From the IMG/VR virus record IMGVR_UViG_3300010403_000705, positions 62,001-126,000 of that record: a stretch of DNA of 64,000 bases; one strand, given 5' to 3'. Source of the DNA: a virus. This document shows positions 3,801 through 43,477 of the stretch, in pieces. The notes under the pieces are model-generated. The model had not been told where the DNA came from. It made no database searches and saw only the letters and a list, made by a program, of their open reading frames with translations. How positions within the stretch are numbered: position 1 is the stretch's first letter; each line of letters begins with the position of its first letter. Position numbers and translations under genes: made by a program.

Positions 3801-4184
3801 GTGAAAAAAAATCAAGAGTTATATGTGTGTAGTAGTATTTATAATAACGAAATATTATCAAAGATTATTCCCGCTTCTTCCAAAAAAGAAGCGGGAATAA
3901 TCTTTGATAATAAATTTAAAATACAAGCCCAAGAAATTCTAGGACCCTTCCTTGATGTTAAAAAGAAAGTGTTAGAAACCACAAAAATTTTGAAGTTTTC
4001 TGACAATAAAATTCATAAAGCATTTTATAATGATTGGTTAGTTAATGCTTTTTATCTATTGGAGCCTGCTGACCATGCATATCTAGTTTTTATAAAAAGA
4101 ATAGATGGTATCAAAAATAATCAACCGCCTAAAGGGACAATTATAGTACCAATACACAATTTGAGGTTTATACAAGATGAATAA
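3801..4184 (+). CDS. Hypothetical protein (127 aa) carrying a 27-bp inverted repeat
   Basis: GTG start shortly after the HU-like gene; its end overlaps the DksA-like start. The product is alpha/beta with an ordered C-terminal half (WLVNAFYLLEPADHAYLVFI). No family recognised. The codons for residues about 18-37 lie in a perfect 27-bp inverted repeat, so both arms must code in opposite senses; the protein sequence there (IIPASSKKEAGIIF) is simply what the palindrome dictates. Confidence 0.55.
   Translation: MKKNQELYVCSSIYNNEILSKIIPASSKKEAGIIFDNKFKIQAQEILGPFLDVKKKVLETTKILKFSDNKIHKAFYNDWLVNAFYLLEPADHAYLVFIKRIDGIKNNQPPKGTIIVPIHNLRFIQDE
3853..3912. repeat. Intragenic perfect inverted repeat, 27-bp stem, 6-nt loop
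   Basis: Bases 3853-3879 are the exact reverse complement of 3886-3912, with loop CCAAAA. Both arms are in the coding sequence near the start of the 127-aa gene. This is the longest hairpin in the window and cannot plausibly arise by chance. No poly-T follows, so it is not a standard terminator. Confidence 0.95.
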
Positions 4185-4527
4185 AAAATTTTTACAACAA
4201 ATGAAAGATAACCTAGTAAAACAAAAGCAAGAGTTATTAATCAGATCGAAAAACTTACCAGATATAGATATTGAAGGTGATGAAACAGACGAGGTACAAG
4301 CGAATTTATTGATTGAAGTGGCAAATCAATTATCTGCTCGTGACATTAGTAAGATATATTTAATCGACGGTGCTTTAAAAAGAATAGAAAATAATACCTA
4401 TGGATTATGTGAGGAATGTGATGATCATATTCCAGAAAAAAGATTATTAGCTAATCCATATTTTTTAACTTGTGTGATATGCGCTGAACAGAGAGAGGCT
4501 GAAGAAAAACAAAGGAAGAGGTATTGA
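4177..4527 (+). CDS. DksA/TraR-family zinc-finger protein
   Basis: A coiled-coil N-terminal half (QMKDNLVKQKQELLIRS) followed by the diagnostic C4 zinc finger: YGLCEECDDHIPEKRLLANP then CVIC near the C-terminus. DksA-family proteins insert their coiled coil into the secondary channel of RNA polymerase and, with or without ppGpp, change promoter choice. At 116 aa it is between TraR (about 70) and DksA (about 150). Whether the acidic coiled-coil tip residues of DksA are kept is unclear. It lies directly ahead of the ClpR/ClpP pair and is likely co-transcribed with it. Confidence 0.75.
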   Translation: MNKKFLQQMKDNLVKQKQELLIRSKNLPDIDIEGDETDEVQANLLIEVANQLSARDISKIYLIDGALKRIENNTYGLCEECDDHIPEKRLLANPYFLTCVICAEQREAEEKQRKRY

Positions 4528-4528
4528 T

Positions 4529-5113
4529 TTGAATACTATTGTTACGGAAGCTACTGAACATGGCGAAATGCCTATCGATATTTATCAAAAATTGTCTAAT
4601 GATAGAATATTATTTATATGTGATGTAATAGATGATAAATTAGCTACTGATATAGTTGCTACCCTCTTATTAAAAGATCTAGAAGATTCTGAGAAAAAAA
4701 TAACCCTTTTTATAAATTCTGAGGGAGGTGATATAAGGAATGTTCTTATGATTTATGATATGATGTGCTTAATACAAGCCCCCATAGAAACGGTATGTAT
4801 TGGTGCAGCTATGGATGAAGCTGCAATAATATTACTTGCTGGTACACAGGGTATGAGATTAGCTACTCCCAATTCGATAATATCTATAAGTCAATTAGTT
4901 CATGATTGGACAAGTTATTCTGATCTAACAGATGCAAAGAAAATTCTTGATCGATCTATGCAAGATAACAAAAAAATGATGGATATAATTGCTAAAAGTG
5001 TTGGTAAAACATTAAAACAGGTCATTGAGGATTTTAATAGGCGAGTTTTTATGAATTGTAACCAAGCAGTTAAATATGGCTTAATTGATAAGGTGGTTGT
5101 TTTTAACAAATGA
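4529..5113 (+). CDS. Catalytically inactive ClpP paralogue (ClpR-like)
   Basis: Clear ClpP fold: SEGGD strand region, IYDMMCLIQAPIETVCIG, and a final NQAVKYGLID. All three catalytic positions are changed. The nucleophile segment (family GxAxSMGA) reads GAAMDEAA with Asp for Ser, the His segment (family IMIHQP) reads ISISQL, and the Asp before the last motif is not conserved. It cannot be a serine protease. ClpR subunits of cyanobacteria and plastids show the same pattern and assemble with active ClpP. The TTG start is supported by GGAAGAGG upstream. Its end overlaps the active clpP start by four bases, which favours coupled translation and a joint complex. Confidence 0.8.
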   Translation: MNTIVTEATEHGEMPIDIYQKLSNDRILFICDVIDDKLATDIVATLLLKDLEDSEKKITLFINSEGGDIRNVLMIYDMMCLIQAPIETVCIGAAMDEAAIILLAGTQGMRLATPNSIISISQLVHDWTSYSDLTDAKKILDRSMQDNKKMMDIIAKSVGKTLKQVIEDFNRRVFMNCNQAVKYGLIDKVVVFNK

Positions 5114-5709
5114 AAACAAAAATGAAAGATCACGATGATCAAGATAACTTGGATAATATTCCAATTTTTCCGGGTTATGTAGAGACTTACATTAAACTAG
5201 CAAAAGATAGAATCATTTTCTTAAACGAAGATGTGACAAAGCAAGCTGCTGCTAATTTATCAGCTCTTTTGTTATATTATGATAATGAAAATTCTGATGA
5301 AAGTATTAGTATTTACATTCATTGTAGTGGGGGAGATGCTGCGGGATTAGTAAATATTTATGATGTTATGCAAATGATAAAATCACCTATCAAAACTATA
5401 TGTATTGGCAAGTGTTATTCTGCGGGTGCTATAATTTTGGCTGCTGGAAACGTTGGTGAAAGGTATGCATTTAAACATTCTAAGATTATGATACATGGCG
5501 TTCAGGCAGGTTTTCCAATTTTAGGTCATGATATAACGAACTCAAAAAGCTATTATGATTTTCTAAAGGATAGTAATGATAAGATAATGAAGATATTAAG
5601 TGATCATACTGGACATTCCTTAGAAAAAATTAAGCAAGATTGTTTAAGAGATGTTTGGTTAGACGCTAAACAGGCATTAGATTATGGTTTAATTGACGAA
5701 ATATTATGA
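5110..5709 (+). CDS. clpP: ClpP protease subunit, catalytic residues intact
   Basis: Full-length ClpP (199 aa). The nucleophile Ser is in TICIGKCYSAGAIILAAG, the His in SKIMIHG, and the Asp in RDVWLDAKQALDYGLID. The SGGD strand-turn is present. ClpP forms a 14-mer chamber that degrades proteins fed by ClpX, ClpA or ClpC. No Clp ATPase is visible in this window, so it may use the host unfoldase. The start overlaps the ClpR-like stop (ATGA). An N-terminal extension of about 20 acidic residues replaces the usual short propeptide. Confidence 0.9.
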   Translation: MKTKMKDHDDQDNLDNIPIFPGYVETYIKLAKDRIIFLNEDVTKQAAANLSALLLYYDNENSDESISIYIHCSGGDAAGLVNIYDVMQMIKSPIKTICIGKCYSAGAIILAAGNVGERYAFKHSKIMIHGVQAGFPILGHDITNSKSYYDFLKDSNDKIMKILSDHTGHSLEKIKQDCLRDVWLDAKQALDYGLIDEIL

Positions 5710-6122
5710 ATAATTTATCTTTAGTATCTTTCGTTGGAGTAGATCTTCGAACAAATTTTGAAGATCTATTATCTTTTCATAACAAAAATATAAAATATGA
5801 ATTTGGTGTTTTATATTCCGACTCTAAAAATGGATTATATCAAAGATACCCTGACTATAAGTTTTCAGAGAGATTCTTAAGGTGGTGTCAAAATAATAAA
5901 GTTAATTCTTCTTTGCATCTATGCGGGACATCTATAGATAAATTCTTAAATGAAGAAGATATTATTATGAATTTATGTTTAATTGCTGATCGCATACAAT
6001 TAAACATAAATATAAAAAAATATGATAATTTTGATATATTAAGCGATAATATACTAAAGATTAGTAAAAAGAATAATTATAGTATTATTTTACAAGATAA
6101 TCAAACAAAAAAAAGAGTTTAA
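5706..6122 (+). CDS. TrpF-like TIM-barrel protein, N-terminal part (frame broken at A8)
   Basis: Begins with barrel-type strands: LSLVSFVGVD, then EFGVLYSDS, LHLCG and RIQLNI, in the order seen in phosphoribosylanthranilate isomerase-like proteins. The frame ends at TAA 6120-6122 just after a run of eight A (6107-6114). Moving one base forward in that run continues in frame into the following gene, which supplies the missing strands. Together they give about 237 residues, a normal size for this fold. Cause unknown: mutation, polymerase or ribosome slippage, or a homopolymer sequencing error. The start overlaps the clpP stop. Confidence 0.5.
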   Translation: MNNLSLVSFVGVDLRTNFEDLLSFHNKNIKYEFGVLYSDSKNGLYQRYPDYKFSERFLRWCQNNKVNSSLHLCGTSIDKFLNEEDIIMNLCLIADRIQLNINIKKYDNFDILSDNILKISKKNNYSIILQDNQTKKRV

Positions 6123-6132
6123 TAAGCTTTTT

Positions 6133-6417
6133 TTGTCAAAGATAGATCAGGATTTTCCTTTATCATTATTATACGATTCTTCTGGTGGTTTTGGCAGGCA
6201 GATTAGTAAAGTATCTGCACCAGATAATAAGTTTTTCACTGGTTATGCTGGCGGAATTAACCCATCCAATGTGCAGAAGATAATTTCATTAATAGATATG
6301 AGTAATATTAATAATAAACCATATTATATTGATATGGAATCTGGAATAAGAATTGATAATATATTTTCTATTTCAGAATGTAATAAGATAAAAGCTTTAA
6401 TTGAGGCTCGAATCTAA
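6133..6417 (+). CDS. TrpF-like TIM-barrel protein, C-terminal part
   Basis: Contains the end of the barrel: LLYDSSGGFGRQ, then GYAGGINPSNV and YYIDMESGIRIDN, matching the substrate-phosphate-binding GG and late strands of TrpF-like proteins. As a separate gene it would start at TTG 6133 without a clear ribosome-binding site. The frame is open further upstream through the A8 run into the preceding gene, so it is best seen as the second half of one broken or slippage-dependent gene. Confidence 0.5.
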   Translation: MSKIDQDFPLSLLYDSSGGFGRQISKVSAPDNKFFTGYAGGINPSNVQKIISLIDMSNINNKPYYIDMESGIRIDNIFSISECNKIKALIEARI

Positions 6418-7909: not shown

Positions 7910-8299
7910 ATGAGAGAAGGCTATTTATATATAGATAGTAATATTTTTCCAACTTATTTGGCAATATCAAGTCAAGAACAACAACAAGGGTTAATGCATG
8001 TCGATTGGCCACCGCCGGTAATGGCATTTGTATATGCTGCTCCACAAGTTAATAAATTTTGGATGAAAAACACTCCAAGTCCTTTGGATATTGTATTTTG
8101 TTGTAGTGGAGAAATAGTAGATATTTGTAAAGGGGAGCCATATTGTACTTCAACAATTGGAAATAAATATAGTGATTTAGTTATTGAGTTACCATACGGT
8201 ACGATTTCTAAATTAGGAATTGTAGAAAAACATAAGGCAGGTATTATAACACCTAAAGCTAATGAATTGCGACAGATATTTGGACAGTTAAAATTATAA
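7910..8299 (+). CDS. DUF192-family protein
   Basis: Matches the DUF192 pattern: an early QGLMHVDWPP, the central FWMKNTPSPLDIVFC, and a closing VIELPYGTISKLGI. Bacterial members are mostly exported proteins of unknown function. This one (129 aa) has no signal peptide, so it probably stays in the cytoplasm or the virion. It follows the 485-aa gene after two bases and precedes the FtsK-like gene. Confidence 0.8.
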   Translation: MREGYLYIDSNIFPTYLAISSQEQQQGLMHVDWPPPVMAFVYAAPQVNKFWMKNTPSPLDIVFCCSGEIVDICKGEPYCTSTIGNKYSDLVIELPYGTISKLGIVEKHKAGIITPKANELRQIFGQLKL

Positions 8300-8339: not shown

Positions 8340-9335
8340 ATGAACAATCAACATATTCATGATTTTAATAAGATCCTTCGTAACTTTAATATTAAAGCTA
8401 CTTGTGTAAACTATAAAGCTATAGATAATTACTTTTTCTATGATTTAAAATTATCTCCTCAAACTAAAGTTCGAGATATCCAAAGATATAATGATGAAAT
8501 TTCTTTATCATTAAAGTCACCTAATAAATCAAATATTAAAATTCTTCATCAAGAAGGTATTGTGAGGTTAGAGTTTGCCGCACCTCGCACACACGTATTA
8601 AAATTATTTGATTATTTTACAAATAATAATGTGCCTAAGGGAGAACTAATGTGTCTTCTTGGTCAATCACTTGATGGTAACAAAATGTGGATGGATTTAG
8701 CACAAAATCCACACATGATCATTTCTGGGACTACCGGATCTGGTAAAAGCACCTTGTTACATAATATCATTGCAAATTTATTCAACTACAGTAAAGTTAA
8801 ACTTTATTTAGTTGATCCAAAAAATGTAGAATTTATCGAATATGATAAAAAAATTAAAAATGATGTGAATGTTTCATATACTTACCATGATGCTTTGCTT
8901 GTTTTAGACTCATTACTAGAAACGATGGAGTATCGATATTCATTGTTACATAGTAATCGAAAGGAAGAATTCCCTCCTATCGTTTTAATTATTGATGAAT
9001 TTTCAGATTTAATTATGCAGGATGTGAATAATGAATTTTATGAAAAACTTTGTCGACTCGCTCAGAAATGTAGAGCTGCAAAAATTCATATTATTCTTTC
9101 AACACAAAGACCTTCTGTAAATATTATTAATGGAACAATTAAAGCTAATTTTCCTGCTCGTATTGCGTGTAGAGTTGCAAGTCATGTAGATTCAAAAGTA
9201 GTATTGGATGCTACAGGTGCTGAAAATCTAATGGGCAAAGGCGATGCTTTGGTTAAGGATAATTATAGATCTATGGAAAGATTTCAAATAGCATATACTG
9301 ACTCTTCAGAAGTGTGTACATATTTTGGTGAATAA
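8340..9335 (+). CDS. FtsK/SpoIIIE-type DNA-translocating ATPase
   Basis: Walker A GTTGSGKSTLL near residue 130, LVDPKNVEFIEYD after it, Walker B VLIIDEFSDLI near 220, then the family's ILSTQRPSVNIINGTIKANF and a glycine-rich end. This is the motor core of FtsK/SpoIIIE, a hexameric dsDNA pump. At 331 aa it has no membrane segments and no C-terminal gamma winged helix, so sequence-directed loading is not expected. Possible jobs are genome segregation, decatenation with the nearby topoisomerase, or DNA transfer; none is proven. Its stop overlaps the next start (TAATG). Confidence 0.85.
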   Translation: MNNQHIHDFNKILRNFNIKATCVNYKAIDNYFFYDLKLSPQTKVRDIQRYNDEISLSLKSPNKSNIKILHQEGIVRLEFAAPRTHVLKLFDYFTNNNVPKGELMCLLGQSLDGNKMWMDLAQNPHMIISGTTGSGKSTLLHNIIANLFNYSKVKLYLVDPKNVEFIEYDKKIKNDVNVSYTYHDALLVLDSLLETMEYRYSLLHSNRKEEFPPIVLIIDEFSDLIMQDVNNEFYEKLCRLAQKCRAAKIHIILSTQRPSVNIINGTIKANFPARIACRVASHVDSKVVLDATGAENLMGKGDALVKDNYRSMERFQIAYTDSSEVCTYFGE

Positions 9336-12951: not shown

Positions 12952-13228
12952 AAGATTATCACATTTTGACCTGGAAGTTAGAAATGGTCTTTGTAATATA
13001 GATATAATTCAACACTCTGATACTAAAGAGATGGTCTCTGAAGATATTGTAGATGATACAGATGCAAATTCTTTGCAAGTATGGTGGGAAATAGTATTCG
13101 AAACTTGTCAGTATGAAACTGGTGCTGATTTTTCCAATAAAAGTTCATTTGTAATCTATAAATTAGATGATCTTAATAGATTATCAGAAGCTTTCCAGAA
13201 AGCTATTAAGGAAACTCGTAACAGATGA
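12941..13228 (+). CDS. Small hypothetical protein (95 aa)
   Basis: ATG 12941 lies in the topA end with GGAG just upstream. An open extension exists further into topA but is unlikely to be used. The product is acidic in the middle (HSDTKEMVSEDIVDDTDANS) with an aromatic helix after it (LQVWWEIVFETCQYE). No recognised family. It overlaps the next start by four bases (ATGA). Confidence 0.6.
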   Translation: MKSKRLSHFDLEVRNGLCNIDIIQHSDTKEMVSEDIVDDTDANSLQVWWEIVFETCQYETGADFSNKSSFVIYKLDDLNRLSEAFQKAIKETRNR

Positions 13229-14544
13229 GAAATAACAAAAAAAGTACAAAAACAGAGTGTATTGATTCAAAATTTTTTGAATCTCAAGAACATCTTTCTA
13301 GAGAAATATTAGATAAGATGAAGCCTCGGATTGAATCTGTGGGAGCTGACAGACCCACTGCTAATTTCATTGACTTAATGAATTGGGTAATGCATTCTTT
13401 TTCTTCCTATATGAAAGATCAAGAAAATTTAAATAAATATGTTAATAACAGAATTATCATTGATGGTCAGTTTTTAACTTTTTGTAAAGAAACTGGAGTA
13501 GATGTTAGTTGCTTATACAAAGATTCTATCATTTCTTGGAAGACTGATCACGACTTTGAAAAATTTTTTATGCAAGGCATTTTTTTAATTAAATCAAAAA
13601 ATGTGGAATTTTTACATGCCGCCTTGTTTCATAAAGGCAATCAGCATGAAGATGAAGTGAGTTTTTTTGTTGTTGTTTCAAATAATAATTATAATGAATA
13701 TGTAAAACTAAGAAATTCTTTTGATAATTGGGTTTTAAAAAGAGACAGAAGTAATCTTAATATACGAGTAATAGATGGAGAAGATATACCATATACTAAA
13801 GATTACAACTGGGATAGTTTATTTTTGCCCAGTGATATTAAAAAAGAGTTACAAAGTTTGGTTGAAAATTTTTTATCCTCTAAAGAATTTTATGAAAGTA
13901 ATAAGATTCCATGGAAAAGAGGAGTATTGTTATACGGTAAACCTGGTAATGGAAAAACTTCTATTATTAGAACTATAATATCTATGTATAATTTTAAACC
14001 TGTTACTATTGTGCCAGGAGGCAACGATGAGGCAGTTAGAGAAGCTTTTTCATATGCTGAAGAACAAAGTCCATCATTATTGTATTTTGAAGATTCAGAT
14101 TCTATGTTAGATAAAAATGTCGATACTTCTTCTTTTTTAAATTTAATGGATGGTATTTCAGCTAAAAACGGTTTATTAGTTATTGCTACTGCTAATGATG
14201 TGAAGAAACTAAAACCCAGTATTACAGATCGTCCTTCTAGATTCGATAGAAAATTTGAAATTCCTCTTCCAAATCAAGAAATGGCGTATATATATCTTAA
14301 GAGATGGTTTGGTTCTCTATTGACTAACAGTAAATGTAAAGAACTGTCTAAGTATGCAGAAAAATCAGAATTTTCTTACGCATACTTAAAAGAGCTTTAT
14401 ATTTCTGCTATGTTTGAAGCTTTAGCTCATAATCGTAAATCTCCAACAGAAAAAGATATAGAAAACTCTTTAAATCGTCTCATCAAAGATAAAAATATTA
14501 TTAACGGTAATAAAATAATAAGTACTGATAAGTATTTTAAATGA
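13225..14544 (+). CDS. AAA+ ATPase (BCS1/FtsH-like AAA domain)
   Basis: The N-terminal 200 residues are unassigned. The AAA module follows: an entry segment YNWDSLFLPSDIKKEL, Walker A LLYGKPGNGKTS near residue 238, Walker B SLLYFEDSDSM, sensor-1 VIATANDVKKL, and the arginine-finger region RPSRFDRKFEIPLP. The order and RPSRFDR motif resemble BCS1-type AAA proteins, which remodel or unfold partners. It has no protease domain; the M41-type peptidase at 29.9 kb lacks an ATPase, but the two are 16 kb apart and pairing is only a hypothesis. Confidence 0.8.
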   Translation: MRNNKKSTKTECIDSKFFESQEHLSREILDKMKPRIESVGADRPTANFIDLMNWVMHSFSSYMKDQENLNKYVNNRIIIDGQFLTFCKETGVDVSCLYKDSIISWKTDHDFEKFFMQGIFLIKSKNVEFLHAALFHKGNQHEDEVSFFVVVSNNNYNEYVKLRNSFDNWVLKRDRSNLNIRVIDGEDIPYTKDYNWDSLFLPSDIKKELQSLVENFLSSKEFYESNKIPWKRGVLLYGKPGNGKTSIIRTIISMYNFKPVTIVPGGNDEAVREAFSYAEEQSPSLLYFEDSDSMLDKNVDTSSFLNLMDGISAKNGLLVIATANDVKKLKPSITDRPSRFDRKFEIPLPNQEMAYIYLKRWFGSLLTNSKCKELSKYAEKSEFSYAYLKELYISAMFEALAHNRKSPTEKDIENSLNRLIKDKNIINGNKIISTDKYFK

Positions 14545-18288: not shown

Positions 18289-18837
18289 ATGATTATTAAA
18301 AATGATGAAGAGTTACTAAGAATTAAATGTGATAATGTAACTGAAGATGAAGTTGGATCACTTATTGAATTGTTAGAAAATGAATTAAATGCAGCTAATA
18401 GGCTGGGTGTGGAAGGTATAGGATTATCAGCTATTCAAGTGGGTGTGCGTAAGAATATTGCTATTGTTAGATTAAAAGATATATCTTTTAACTTAGTAAA
18501 TTGCACAATCAATCAAGCTTATGATCCTGCTATTTTTAGACAAGAAGGATGTTTATCATTTCCTGGACGAGTAGAAGATACTATAAGATTCCAAGAAATT
18601 CACGTTGTTGATAATTTAGTGTATCCTCACAATTTTATAGCTACTGGTCTATTATCTGTAATATGCCAACACGAAATTGATCATTTGAATGGTGCATTAT
18701 TTATGGATCGTGTGAATAGTATAAATACAGTTTCAAGAAAAAAAAATAAGCTTGGACCAAATGATCTTTGTATTTGTGGCAAAGTAGATCCACGTACTAA
18801 ACATCCTAAAAAATTTAAAAAATGTTGCGGTAAATAG
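18289..18837 (+). CDS. def: Peptide deformylase fused to a C-terminal SEC-C motif
   Basis: All three deformylase motifs are present: GIGLSAIQVGV (GxGxxAxQ), EGCLSFPG with the metal-binding Cys, and CQHEIDHLNG with the HExxH metal site. The enzyme removes the formyl group from nascent N-termini. After about 150 residues comes GPNDLCICGK ... FKKCCGK, a SEC-C zinc motif with a short insert. SEC-C is known from SecA and YecA, where it binds SecB or the ribosome. Phage deformylases are common but normally lack any C-terminal zinc tail. Ends in TAG. Confidence 0.9.
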   Translation: MIIKNDEELLRIKCDNVTEDEVGSLIELLENELNAANRLGVEGIGLSAIQVGVRKNIAIVRLKDISFNLVNCTINQAYDPAIFRQEGCLSFPGRVEDTIRFQEIHVVDNLVYPHNFIATGLLSVICQHEIDHLNGALFMDRVNSINTVSRKKNKLGPNDLCICGKVDPRTKHPKKFKKCCGK

Positions 18838-28059: not shown

Positions 28060-29307
28060 ATGGAGATAAATGTAAAAGAATTAGAGCCATGTAAGTTAAG
28101 CATTCAGTACATCGCGGATGCCGGAGAAATTCTTGAAAAACGTGCGCAAATTTTACAAGTCTTTAAGAAAGCTCCTGTTCCTGGATTTAGACCAGGGAAA
28201 GGAACTTTAGATGCAATTAAGATTCATTACAAAAATCAAATTGAAGAATCTTTGAAACGCGGTTTAGCAGAAGATGCTTATCATAATACTATTTTTGAGA
28301 AAAAATTAAGACCTCATGGAGCGCCATTTTTTAAGTCTCTGATGATAGCTGATGGAAAATTTACTTGTGATTTTGATTTACATGTTAAACCTGATTTTGA
28401 ATTGGCTCCTTATAAAGAATTAGAAATACCAAAACCTCACGAAGATTTTTCTTCAGTAGAATTCAGTGAGAAAATATTACAAGAATTAAGACGTAAATTT
28501 GGAGATGCTTATCCATATACAGAAAATGATTTTGTGCAAGATAGTGATAATGTAATTATTGATTATCAAGGTACTGTGGACGGTGTAAAAATAGATAATT
28601 TGTCGGCACAGGGAGAAATGCTAACTGTAGGTCGTAGTCAATTACTAAACTTTGATGATAATTTATTAGGCATGGTTTTAGGAGAGACAAGAGAATTTGA
28701 TGTTAAAGTGCCAGAGAATGGTTTACCATCTTTAGCTGGTAAACTAGTTCATTTTAAAGTTACTCTTAATATGGGTTCTAAAACTGAATTATGCGCACTT
28801 GATGACTCCTTAGCTGTAAAAATGGGAAAAAAAGATTTCTCCGAACTAAAAGAATTTGTACATGCAGCTGCTATGAGCAGAACTTCTAACAGTTCCAAAC
28901 TAGCATTAAATGAAGCCATAACAAACAGATTAGTGAATGATAACAAATTTGCGGTTCCCAATTGGTTGAGCTTATCTGAAGCGCGTTATTTAGCACATAA
29001 CTCAAAGATGGATTGGGAAACTATGAATGATGTCGATAAAGAAAAATATTTGCAAATGGCGGAAAGTAATGTTAAATTATCTCTAATTTTAGATAGAATT
29101 AGAGATTTAGAGCCAGAAGCACAAATAACTGATCAAGAAGTTTTCGATATTGTTAAACAAAATTTAACTAAAATGAATAATCAAAAATCTATTGATGATA
29201 CTATAAAAGAAATGAATAGAACTGGCTATCTGCAAATTCTATTTTCTAGAATTAAAGATGAGTTTGTGTTAGATTTTATAACCAAAAGCGTTAAAGTAAT
29301 TGAATAA
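28060..29307 (+). CDS. tig: Trigger factor
   Basis: Full-length ribosome-associated chaperone (415 aa; E. coli 432). The ribosome-binding signature is GFRPGKG at residues 42-48, the same place as the FRK tip of E. coli. The FKBP-like prolyl isomerase domain is present (DNVIIDYQGTVDG; LNFDDNLLGMVLGETREFDV), and the helical arms follow. It would dock at ribosomal protein L23 and fold nascent chains. GGA precedes the ATG, and TATCTTAGA occurs 35 bases upstream. Complete phage-encoded trigger factors are rare in my knowledge. Confidence 0.9.
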   Translation: MEINVKELEPCKLSIQYIADAGEILEKRAQILQVFKKAPVPGFRPGKGTLDAIKIHYKNQIEESLKRGLAEDAYHNTIFEKKLRPHGAPFFKSLMIADGKFTCDFDLHVKPDFELAPYKELEIPKPHEDFSSVEFSEKILQELRRKFGDAYPYTENDFVQDSDNVIIDYQGTVDGVKIDNLSAQGEMLTVGRSQLLNFDDNLLGMVLGETREFDVKVPENGLPSLAGKLVHFKVTLNMGSKTELCALDDSLAVKMGKKDFSELKEFVHAAAMSRTSNSSKLALNEAITNRLVNDNKFAVPNWLSLSEARYLAHNSKMDWETMNDVDKEKYLQMAESNVKLSLILDRIRDLEPEAQITDQEVFDIVKQNLTKMNNQKSIDDTIKEMNRTGYLQILFSRIKDEFVLDFITKSVKVIE

Positions 29308-29940: not shown

Positions 29941-30606
29941 ATGGTTAATAATGGTGCTGGATCTATTGAAGACATCAGAAAAAAAGTCACTTATACACAT
30001 GAGTTAATATCTACTGCTTATCATGAGGCTGGACATACAATATATGGTTTACTGCATTGTATGAAAGTTAATATGGTACATATTTTTGAAAATAAAAAAT
30101 CAAAAAGAGTATGTGGTTTTACCCATTTTAATTATCCTGTAGCCAGTGACGTAGATGATCCGGAATTATCTCAAAAATTAATGAAGGCTGAAATTTGTCT
30201 TAATTACGCAGGTTTAGCTGCTGAAAAATATCATTTTAAGAATGTTTCAGGATCTGATAGATTTCCAGGATATTGGAAAAATGGATCGTCTAGCGATACT
30301 ATGGCTGCGGCTGCTTTAATAAAACAATATGATTTAGTCCCTCCAGGAAAGAAAAGACATTTTTTTAAAAATAAATTAATTAAAGAAACTGAGAAACAAT
30401 TACAACAACATTGGGATGTTGTTGTAATTGTTTCTCATGCTTTATTCCGAAAAAAAAGATTATATTTTTCTGATTTAAAAAGTTTATTAACGAAGAAATC
30501 TGCAAATAAAGAATTTTGGAAAGAGCAATTTAAGCGTATTGATTATATTTTTAAAAATGGATATGACCTTGACGAGAAAAATTTAAAATTTATATTGATG
30601 CAATGA
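29941..30606 (+). CDS. FtsH-type (M41) zinc metallopeptidase without AAA domain
   Basis: The zinc site is TAYHEAGHTIYG at residues about 25-36, and GSSSDTMAAAALIKQYDLV supplies the third ligand Asp in the place where FtsH has its conserved Asp. Between them NYAGLAAEKYHF matches the FtsH GGRAAE region. There is no AAA+ module and no membrane segment, so this 221-aa protein is the isolated peptidase. It may need a separate unfoldase (the AAA ATPase at 13225 is one candidate) or act on unfolded chains. A perfect 20-bp hairpin lies in the second half. Confidence 0.8.
   Translation: MVNNGAGSIEDIRKKVTYTHELISTAYHEAGHTIYGLLHCMKVNMVHIFENKKSKRVCGFTHFNYPVASDVDDPELSQKLMKAEICLNYAGLAAEKYHFKNVSGSDRFPGYWKNGSSSDTMAAAALIKQYDLVPPGKKRHFFKNKLIKETEKQLQQHWDVVVIVSHALFRKKRLYFSDLKSLLTKKSANKEFWKEQFKRIDYIFKNGYDLDEKNLKFILMQ
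30391..30436. repeat. Intragenic perfect inverted repeat, 20-bp stem, 6-nt loop
   Basis: Bases 30391-30410 are the exact reverse complement of 30417-30436, loop TTGGGA, in the M41 peptidase gene. No T-run follows. Confidence 0.95.
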
Positions 30607-41972: not shown

Positions 41973-42536
41973 ATGAAAACGGTGCTTGGTTTTGATGTAT
42001 CTAGTTCCACAATTGGCTGGTGTGTTTTAGAAATTAGTGATGAGAGTATTATAAAATATACTGATTCTGGATATTTTAAGCCCGTTAAAAAAGGATCTAT
42101 AATTGATCGCTTGGTCGATACTAGAAAAAAAATACAAGATATTATCTATAAATATAAACCAGATTATATTGGTATTGAAGATTTAATAAAATTTATGCCT
42201 AAGAGCACTGCTACAACTGTAGTAATGTTAACAACTTTTAATCGTATGGTATGTCTAACTTCTTATGATTATTTAACTAGTAATCCAGGTTTATTTAATG
42301 TTATGAGTATTAGGCACGGATTAAAAATCTCTAAAATAATTCCAAAAAAAGAAGATATGCCAGAACTTGTGTCTAAACATCTAGGAATTATTTTTCCCTA
42401 TGAGAGAGTATTAAAAGGCAAGAAAAATGGTACAATAAAAATAGAAAATTATGATAGGGCAGATGGCATGGCAGTGGCTTTATATTATGCATTTTTGTTA
42501 ACGGGAAAAATTAAGCACAAGGGCAAGAATAAATGA
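41973..42536 (+). CDS. RuvC-like Holliday-junction resolvase / RNase H-fold nuclease
   Basis: RuvC hallmarks in order: VLGFDVSSSTIGWCV (first Asp), YIGIEDLIKF (Glu), and NYDRADGMAVALYYA with the last Asps. Length (187 aa) equals RuvC (173). Phage RuvC-like enzymes resolve branched DNA before packaging. GGAG precedes the ATG. Its stop overlaps the dnaJ start (ATGA). Confidence 0.85.
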   Translation: MKTVLGFDVSSSTIGWCVLEISDESIIKYTDSGYFKPVKKGSIIDRLVDTRKKIQDIIYKYKPDYIGIEDLIKFMPKSTATTVVMLTTFNRMVCLTSYDYLTSNPGLFNVMSIRHGLKISKIIPKKEDMPELVSKHLGIIFPYERVLKGKKNGTIKIENYDRADGMAVALYYAFLLTGKIKHKGKNK

Positions 42537-43477
42537 ATCTATCAGAAGCGTATTCAATTTTAGAATTATCACCCAATTCTTCAGCGGATGAAGTTAAAAA
42601 AAAGTACAGAGAATTTACAAAAAAATATCATCCAGATATTAATAAAGAAGAAAATTCTGAGGATAGGTTTAAGAAAATTAATGAGGCTTATAACTGTATA
42701 AATAATGGGAAAAATTCGGACGCTGATTCATTTACTGGTTTTCATAACCCTTTTGTGAATAAGACTACCTTCCAAGCTGAAAATATCCAACTATATACGA
42801 CAATTTCTTTTAAAGAATCTGTTTTAGGGTGTCAAAAAGAACTATGTTTTAGTAGGAATAGTAAATGCACGAATTGTAATGGTAATGGTTTTATTCGTAT
42901 AAATAATGGATGTGATAGATGTCATGGCAAAGGACAAATTGTTGGTAAACAAGGTAACATGATATTTACACGAACATGTGATAAATGTATGGGACAGAAC
43001 AATTCTTCTCAGTGTAATATATGTTTAGGCACAGGACATGTAAATATGCAGGTGTCAATTAATGTAAATATTCCTGGAGGTGTTGTCAGTGGTAATATTT
43101 TAAGACTAAGTGGTTTCGGAAACTATATAGGTAGTTTTATAAATATGGACCAATATACTGAAGCACACCTACATATAACAGTGATTATGGATGAAGGTTT
43201 AACTTTAGAAAATAATGACGTTATATCCAGGATAAATATTACTTTATTGGAGGCGTTACAAGGATCGCAAAAAACTGTAAAAACTATTCTTGGAGATTAC
43301 ATAATCTCCATACCCCCTTTATCTAAAAACAAAGAAGAAATTAACATACCAAATTTAGGTGTTAATGGAATGGGTAATCAAAAAGTTATATTAGATGTAT
43401 CATATCCATCTAATATACAAGATGTAATTAATGTGTTATCTAATGATGAGGAGTTATTTCCGTGCCATTCTCAATGA
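42533..43477 (+). CDS. dnaJ: DnaJ (Hsp40) co-chaperone
   Basis: J domain with HPD in KKYREFTKKYHPDINKEEN, a short linker in place of the long Gly/Phe region, a zinc-finger domain with four CxxCxGxG-type repeats (CTNCNGNG, CDRCHGKG, CDKCMGQN, CNICLGTG; the third is degenerate), and the C-terminal peptide-binding domain. It activates DnaK; no DnaK is seen here, so it would steer host DnaK. DnaJ-like proteins are needed for replication of some phages. Overlaps the RuvC-like and the next gene. Confidence 0.92.
   Translation: MNLSEAYSILELSPNSSADEVKKKYREFTKKYHPDINKEENSEDRFKKINEAYNCINNGKNSDADSFTGFHNPFVNKTTFQAENIQLYTTISFKESVLGCQKELCFSRNSKCTNCNGNGFIRINNGCDRCHGKGQIVGKQGNMIFTRTCDKCMGQNNSSQCNICLGTGHVNMQVSINVNIPGGVVSGNILRLSGFGNYIGSFINMDQYTEAHLHITVIMDEGLTLENNDVISRINITLLEALQGSQKTVKTILGDYIISIPPLSKNKEEINIPNLGVNGMGNQKVILDVSYPSNIQDVINVLSNDEELFPCHSQ
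43291..43310. repeat. Short palindrome in dnaJ
   Basis: TGGAGATT (43291-43298) and AATCTCCA (43303-43310) pair exactly around ACAT inside the dnaJ C-terminal region. Confidence 0.6.

Follow-up and report, generated by a model that had tools for sequence, protein, structure and literature searches.

The window analysed here, a stretch of 64,000 nucleotides, comes from a 432,844-base virus record with terminase, portal and major capsid genes. Close to its start lie two adjacent genes for homologues of the ClpP protease, a ClpR-like inactive one (R) and an active one (P), listed with their neighbours in Table 1. A first-pass annotation made from the sequence alone had described them as ClpP-fold genes overlapping by four bases, and the open reading frames and Pfam matches agree with this description. 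Both proteins match the CLP_protease family (PF00574, cut-off 20.2 bits) over nearly their full length, R with 6.5e-46 and 157 bits, P with 3.8e-49 and 167 bits.

The TTG start of R is preceded by a Shine-Dalgarno-like AGGAAGAGG and separated by one base from the stop codon of the DksA-like gene. R ends with a TGA at 5113, and the frame 3' of P begins four bases ahead of the end of P. With these short distances and the ATGA overlap of R and P, the genes look like one translationally coupled run. R and P appear to be co-transcribed, and the ATGA overlap would couple their translation. The DksA-like gene had been thought to lead this run; the gene is real, but the conserved syntenic run starts upstream of it, near 1829. 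Across the clade, the order comprises small proteins, including an HU-like one, followed by the DksA-like protein (at 31 of the 31 loci compared), R, P, the DUF192 protein and the FtsK-like ATPase.

Table 1. Features at and around the ClpP-homologue pair (positions in the window).
Feature	Position	Strand	Remarks
DksA/TraR-like zinc-finger protein	4177..4527	+	PF01258, 4.7e-9; directly 5' of R
ClpR-like inactive ClpP homologue (R)	4529..5113	+	194 aa, TTG start, no propeptide
ATGA start/stop overlap of the R and P genes	5110..5113	+	four shared bases
Active ClpP homologue (P)	5110..5709	+	199 aa, ATG start
DUF192 protein	7910..8299	+	downstream neighbour, 31/31 loci compared
FtsK/SpoIIIE-like ATPase	8340..9335	+	downstream neighbour, 28/31 loci compared
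YjoB/Cdc48-like AAA+ ATPase	13225..14544	+	64-76% identical orthologue in 10/10 related phage records

Directly 3' of P (5706-6122 and 6133-6417) lies a TIM-barrel gene with a weak match to phosphoribosylanthranilate isomerase (PF00697). A frame change near an A8 run splits it in the window. In the relatives L005 and L015 the gene is unbroken and encodes about 240 aa; it is split as well in L003, and in most relatives it was not found right 3' of P.

The annotation had also held that the first protein lacks the catalytic Ser, His and Asp and that the second retains all three, and the alignment with relatives and with E. coli ClpP (Ser97/His122/Asp171 in mature numbering) bears this out. The triad columns of R are occupied by D96, S121 and R172, whereas P carries S104, H129 and D181. 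The AlphaFold2 model of R (pLDDT 84.8) finds its best Foldseek matches exclusively among ClpP structures, with TM scores of 0.90/0.92 to S. aureus ClpP, and this structural alignment places no triad elsewhere in the protein. The model of P (pLDDT 83.4) is likewise matched best by ClpP. R and all 32 relatives combine the ClpP fold with the loss of the catalytic residues, the first of two marks of a ClpR in the functional sense, the second being assembly with an active ClpP into one core. The cellular ClpP models that R matches, the best of them generic ClpP, all have curated cut-offs far above its score. Over the 32 pairs the Ser column of R is filled by D, N, F, K, Y or G, the His column by S, G, T, N or D, and the Asp column by R, K, T, Q, I or L; the triad of P is Ser-His-Asp in 23 members and Ser-His-Glu in nine. 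A motif invariant in the P family and specific to it, HGxQxxFP, starts at the catalytic His.

The second difference between the two proteins concerns the axial N-terminal loop, through which a typical ClpP contacts its ATPase and gates its pore. R begins directly with a conserved MNT(L/I)VxExTexGE that aligns with the E. coli axial loop MVIEQTSRGE. This loop spans residues 2-16, and has the family consensus MNTLVLExTEHGE; in the model, with moderate confidence, residues 5-9 and 12-16 pair to form a hairpin. In P, residues 1-18 are predicted to be disordered (mostly pLDDT <50), the tail is variable, and the model contains no axial hairpin, so that a typical loop was not found. Column identity over axial-loop positions 3-18 is 69% in R versus 32% in P. 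Within the variable tail of P, 15 of the 32 members carry a His-x-His (e.g. NHEHEH and CDHNHDH; L009 2585-3175, L015 5001-5597), which might bind metal.

The docking cleft of R is mostly hydrophobic. Position 114 is Thr in every R, and the cleft residue Tyr60 is mostly replaced by Thr in R and by Ser, Thr or another residue in P, substitutions that may alter the canonical docking of the IGF loop. In E. coli numbering, the residues that are invariant in R and specific to it are N3, E8, R71, T114 and L124. Within the R family, Asp at the Ser97 column pairs with Arg at the Asp171 column (16/19 versus 0/13; Fisher 3e-6), a pattern suggestive of a salt bridge replacing the triad. This covariation is a lead only, since the tree gives just two independent pairs on well-supported branches.

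The annotation had proposed looking in other huge phages for clpP genes with a ClpR-like neighbour. Scans of viral contigs, run first with R and P themselves and afterwards with the alignments of each, were strongly positive, yielding 32 distinct tandem pairs on contigs of up to 481 kb. The dead gene is upstream and the active gene downstream in all of them, with no unpaired member and a spacing that ranges from an overlap of 38 bases to a gap of 40 bases. R is dead at all three triad positions and P is intact in 32/32. Exactly two ClpP genes were found in this record and in each of the 18 related records searched whole. The tandem dead/active arrangement is far above chance, since it is common to all 32 related pairs; none of the related records examined lacks the pair, which makes it a reliable trait of these huge phages. 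A scan of 84,980 bacterial and archaeal genomes with the R profile, pattern-based and of limited sensitivity, confirmed no relative, and a phage collection of 50,697 records held nothing more than 60% identical to R or P. Tandem ClpP genes also occur outside the R/P clade, on the phage contigs L069, L070, L079, L081 and L085, where neither copy has lost the triad.

The dN/dS of R is about 0.04-0.09 in most of the measurable comparisons between close relatives, similar to that of P, with one R pair at 0.21; these values are rough, as dS is saturated in most comparisons. Purifying selection and retention in 32/32 pairs imply that R is maintained and is not a decaying copy. When placed in a tree alongside bacterial ClpPs and those of other phages, R and P each form one clade (SH-aLRT 99 and 100), and the branching inside the two clades is largely mirrored. 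Co-inheritance accounts for the mirrored trees and the conserved adjacency as well. A sister relation of R and P, corresponding to one duplication within the phage lineage, is recovered with weak support, an SH-aLRT of 82 that falls to 46 after the removal of long branches. The bacterial ClpPs in this tree came from a scan with a small ClpP alignment, and its sampling includes no cyanobacterial ClpR.

Neither this 433-kb record nor the 18 related ones yielded an unfoldase of the Hsp100 type (ClpX, ClpA or ClpC) in a search whose positive control, the ClpX of Bacillus phage G, was recovered with 3.1e-34 next to its ClpP. ClpS was not detected in the nine records checked. The phages therefore likely lack a ClpX-type unfoldase of their own, as far as linear metagenomic contigs, complete or not, can show. 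Two other AAA+ proteins were found. One of them is the YjoB-like ATPase, a member of the classical AAA/Cdc48 type. AAA_2 matches occur in 13 of the 18 related records, and three of these, weak ones opened across the clade, proved to be the same MoxR-like ATPase of about 370 aa. One MoxR-like ATPase (L027 166-2322; G000:C1:34201-36357) carries an intein-like LAGLIDADG insertion at its Walker A motif (GRRGVGK), with two extra residues (QL) before the expected intein Cys; its relatives in L035 and L038 are without the insertion.

Taken together, the features of R and P are best explained by a phage-specific hetero-oligomeric core, termed ClpRP, in which R would serve docking and gating, P would serve catalysis, and a host unfoldase would feed the chamber; we give this reading a probability of roughly two in three. 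R and P would co-assemble into one barrel, as the tandem conserved in 32/32 pairs suggests. The dead R would be the structural, gating and ATPase-docking subunit, acting through its axial hairpin and hydrophobic cleft. P keeps its Ser-His-Asp(Glu) triad without an axial hairpin and would thus supply the cutting sites. A ring of seven R stacked on a ring of seven P is preferred over mixed rings because the docking loops are found on R only. The core would most likely be fed by host ClpX, ClpA or ClpC, because no Hsp100 was found in the phage; substrates unfolded by the host enzyme would be redirected into a chamber of phage origin that would have fewer active sites and an altered specificity. 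The earlier suggestion that the phage steers host ClpX or ClpC has gained in likelihood, given the axial loop of R and a search for phage Hsp100 that detected only the control.

Other readings of the pair have to be considered. Inhibitors of host proteases are a known type of phage protein, and R might be one of them, a dominant-negative subunit that joins host ClpP or caps host ClpX, ClpA or ClpC and so blocks the host Clp system, with P acting separately. A protein that has kept its docking loop and lost its catalytic residues, in a phage with no unfoldase found, would suit such a role. However, R never occurs without its own P, the two genes being adjacent in 32/32 pairs; a host poison has no need of a dedicated active partner; and both R and P show family-specific changes near the handle region. 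This explanation is therefore regarded as unlikely, although it is the strongest of the rivals. Somewhat less probable again is that R and P work with a phage AAA+ partner instead of a host unfoldase. The YjoB-like ATPase was found in 10/10 records tested, and the AAA_2 matches described above add the MoxR-like protein as a second candidate; either could be a real partner. The YjoB-like protein, however, contains no IGF or LGF tripeptide by eye, and we know of no ClpP partnership for ATPases of the classical AAA/Cdc48 type. As a phage-encoded candidate partner of ClpP it is possible but unsupported. In the MoxR-like protein, LGF occurs only in a helical-looking region, and the canonical ClpX-type axial loop retained on R also speaks against a partner of either kind.

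The pair might, alternatively, be the prohead (head-maturation) protease of the phage. PHROG head-maturation families match both proteins, R weakly (6e-13) and P better (4e-28), and the ClpP of phage G bears that annotation. Yet R and P match cellular ClpP much more strongly, and against the curated head-maturation model NF045542 they score 48 and 58 bits at a cut-off of 120. The pair does not lie in a head module beside the portal and capsid genes: some 50 kb separate it from the terminase gene, the portal and capsid genes lie further off still, and its DksA-, HU- and FtsK-like neighbours include none that is structural. Instead, a separate protein of 1226 aa that resembles head-maturation proteases (phrog_18299, 1.2e-11; G000:126727-130407) is encoded between the portal and major capsid genes. 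A role of R and P in head maturation is accordingly very improbable. A search for the T4-type prohead protease (PF03420) gave no match anywhere and is uninformative, since the controls gave nothing either. The 1226-aa protein itself (L242 727-4407 = G000:C1:126727-130407) combines a protease-like N-terminal part with a very long tail that is repetitive in places and is perhaps a protease-scaffold fusion. That R is a functionless, decaying duplicate, as the loss of all three catalytic residues might suggest, is contradicted by the purifying selection, the retention in 32/32 pairs and the invariant residues specific to R, and its probability is practically negligible.

The ClpRP core can be compared with several known systems. 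In Mycobacterium, ClpP1 and ClpP2 both retain the catalytic triad, whereas the phage R has lost it in 32/32 members; two active paralogues in one operon, the actinobacterial arrangement, were not found here. The likeness lies in the presence of two paralogues: ClpP1P2 hetero-tetradecamers with asymmetric ATPase docking are described for Mycobacterium, Listeria and Pseudomonas, the paralogues of Mycobacterium being encoded in one operon (PMC3280978, PMC4416901, PMC6889138). Of the analogues named in the first-pass annotation, the actinobacterial one is thus a loose comparison, and the cyanobacterial and plastid ClpPR complexes are closer, as these and their apicoplast counterparts also combine a dead ClpP homologue with an active one. 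Synechococcus elongatus forms mixed ClpP3/ClpR rings of four R and three P subunits that work with ClpC (PMC4673316), and plastids, and probably apicoplasts likewise, have one R ring and one P ring (PMC7966870). In contrast to the cyanobacterial and plastid complexes, the phage proteins form their own clade, comprise just one R and one P in tandem, have no ClpC of their own in the records searched, and keep the axial loop on R while P has lost it. Phage ClpRP probably arose independently of them; in the tree of bacterial and phage ClpPs, R is a clade of its own. Mixed ClpP/ClpR cores as such are already known; the proposed phage version would differ in splitting docking loop and triad between the subunits.

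Among phages, the closest point of comparison is Bacillus phage G, a jumbo phage that is the nearest cultured match by major capsid protein (53%) and also encodes ClpP. Phage G differs in having one active bacterial-type ClpP (gp257) with ClpX (gp258) directly 3' and no R, and its ClpP falls outside both the R and the P clade in the tree. At this phage G locus (L253 1785-3745) the ClpX carries an LGF docking tripeptide, and the adjoining ClpP is the one annotated as a head maturation protease. Lak phages, Atu_ph07 and Salicola phage SCTP-2 have a single phage ClpP, whose identity to P or R does not exceed about 40%. ClpP is described from some jumbo phages and ClpS from others; ClpA or ClpX, too, is described from some (PMC7824862). 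Two metagenomic huge-phage records had two ClpP places each, and the locus opened in each of them proved to be a single active ClpP with no dead partner. No report of a ClpR-like phage protein or of a dead phage ClpP partner was found in a literature search that was thin on subscription papers.

A wider reading can be offered more tentatively, at somewhat less than even odds. The huge phages of this clade, whose capsid protein makes them cousins of phage G, may have independently evolved a two-part ClpRP, R for docking and gating and P for catalysis only, without an unfoldase of its own. It would thereby achieve a one-sided takeover of host ClpX, ClpA or ClpC and re-aim host proteolysis during infection. 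If so, the phage would take over the host unfoldases by providing a chamber, not an adaptor. If the two subunits do work together, one dead and one active subunit with the docking loop and the triad parted between them would make a minimal test case. Annotation can easily mistake genes of this kind for plain ClpP or for head maturation protease.

Besides the Clp pair, the window encodes other proteins of protein biogenesis, namely a phage-borne trigger factor, DnaJ and peptide deformylase (28060-29307, 42533-43477 and 18289-18837). A stand-alone peptidase M41 domain of the FtsH type, with an HEAGH motif and no AAA part, lies at 29941-30606 and scores 28.0 bits against a Pfam cut-off of 29.9.
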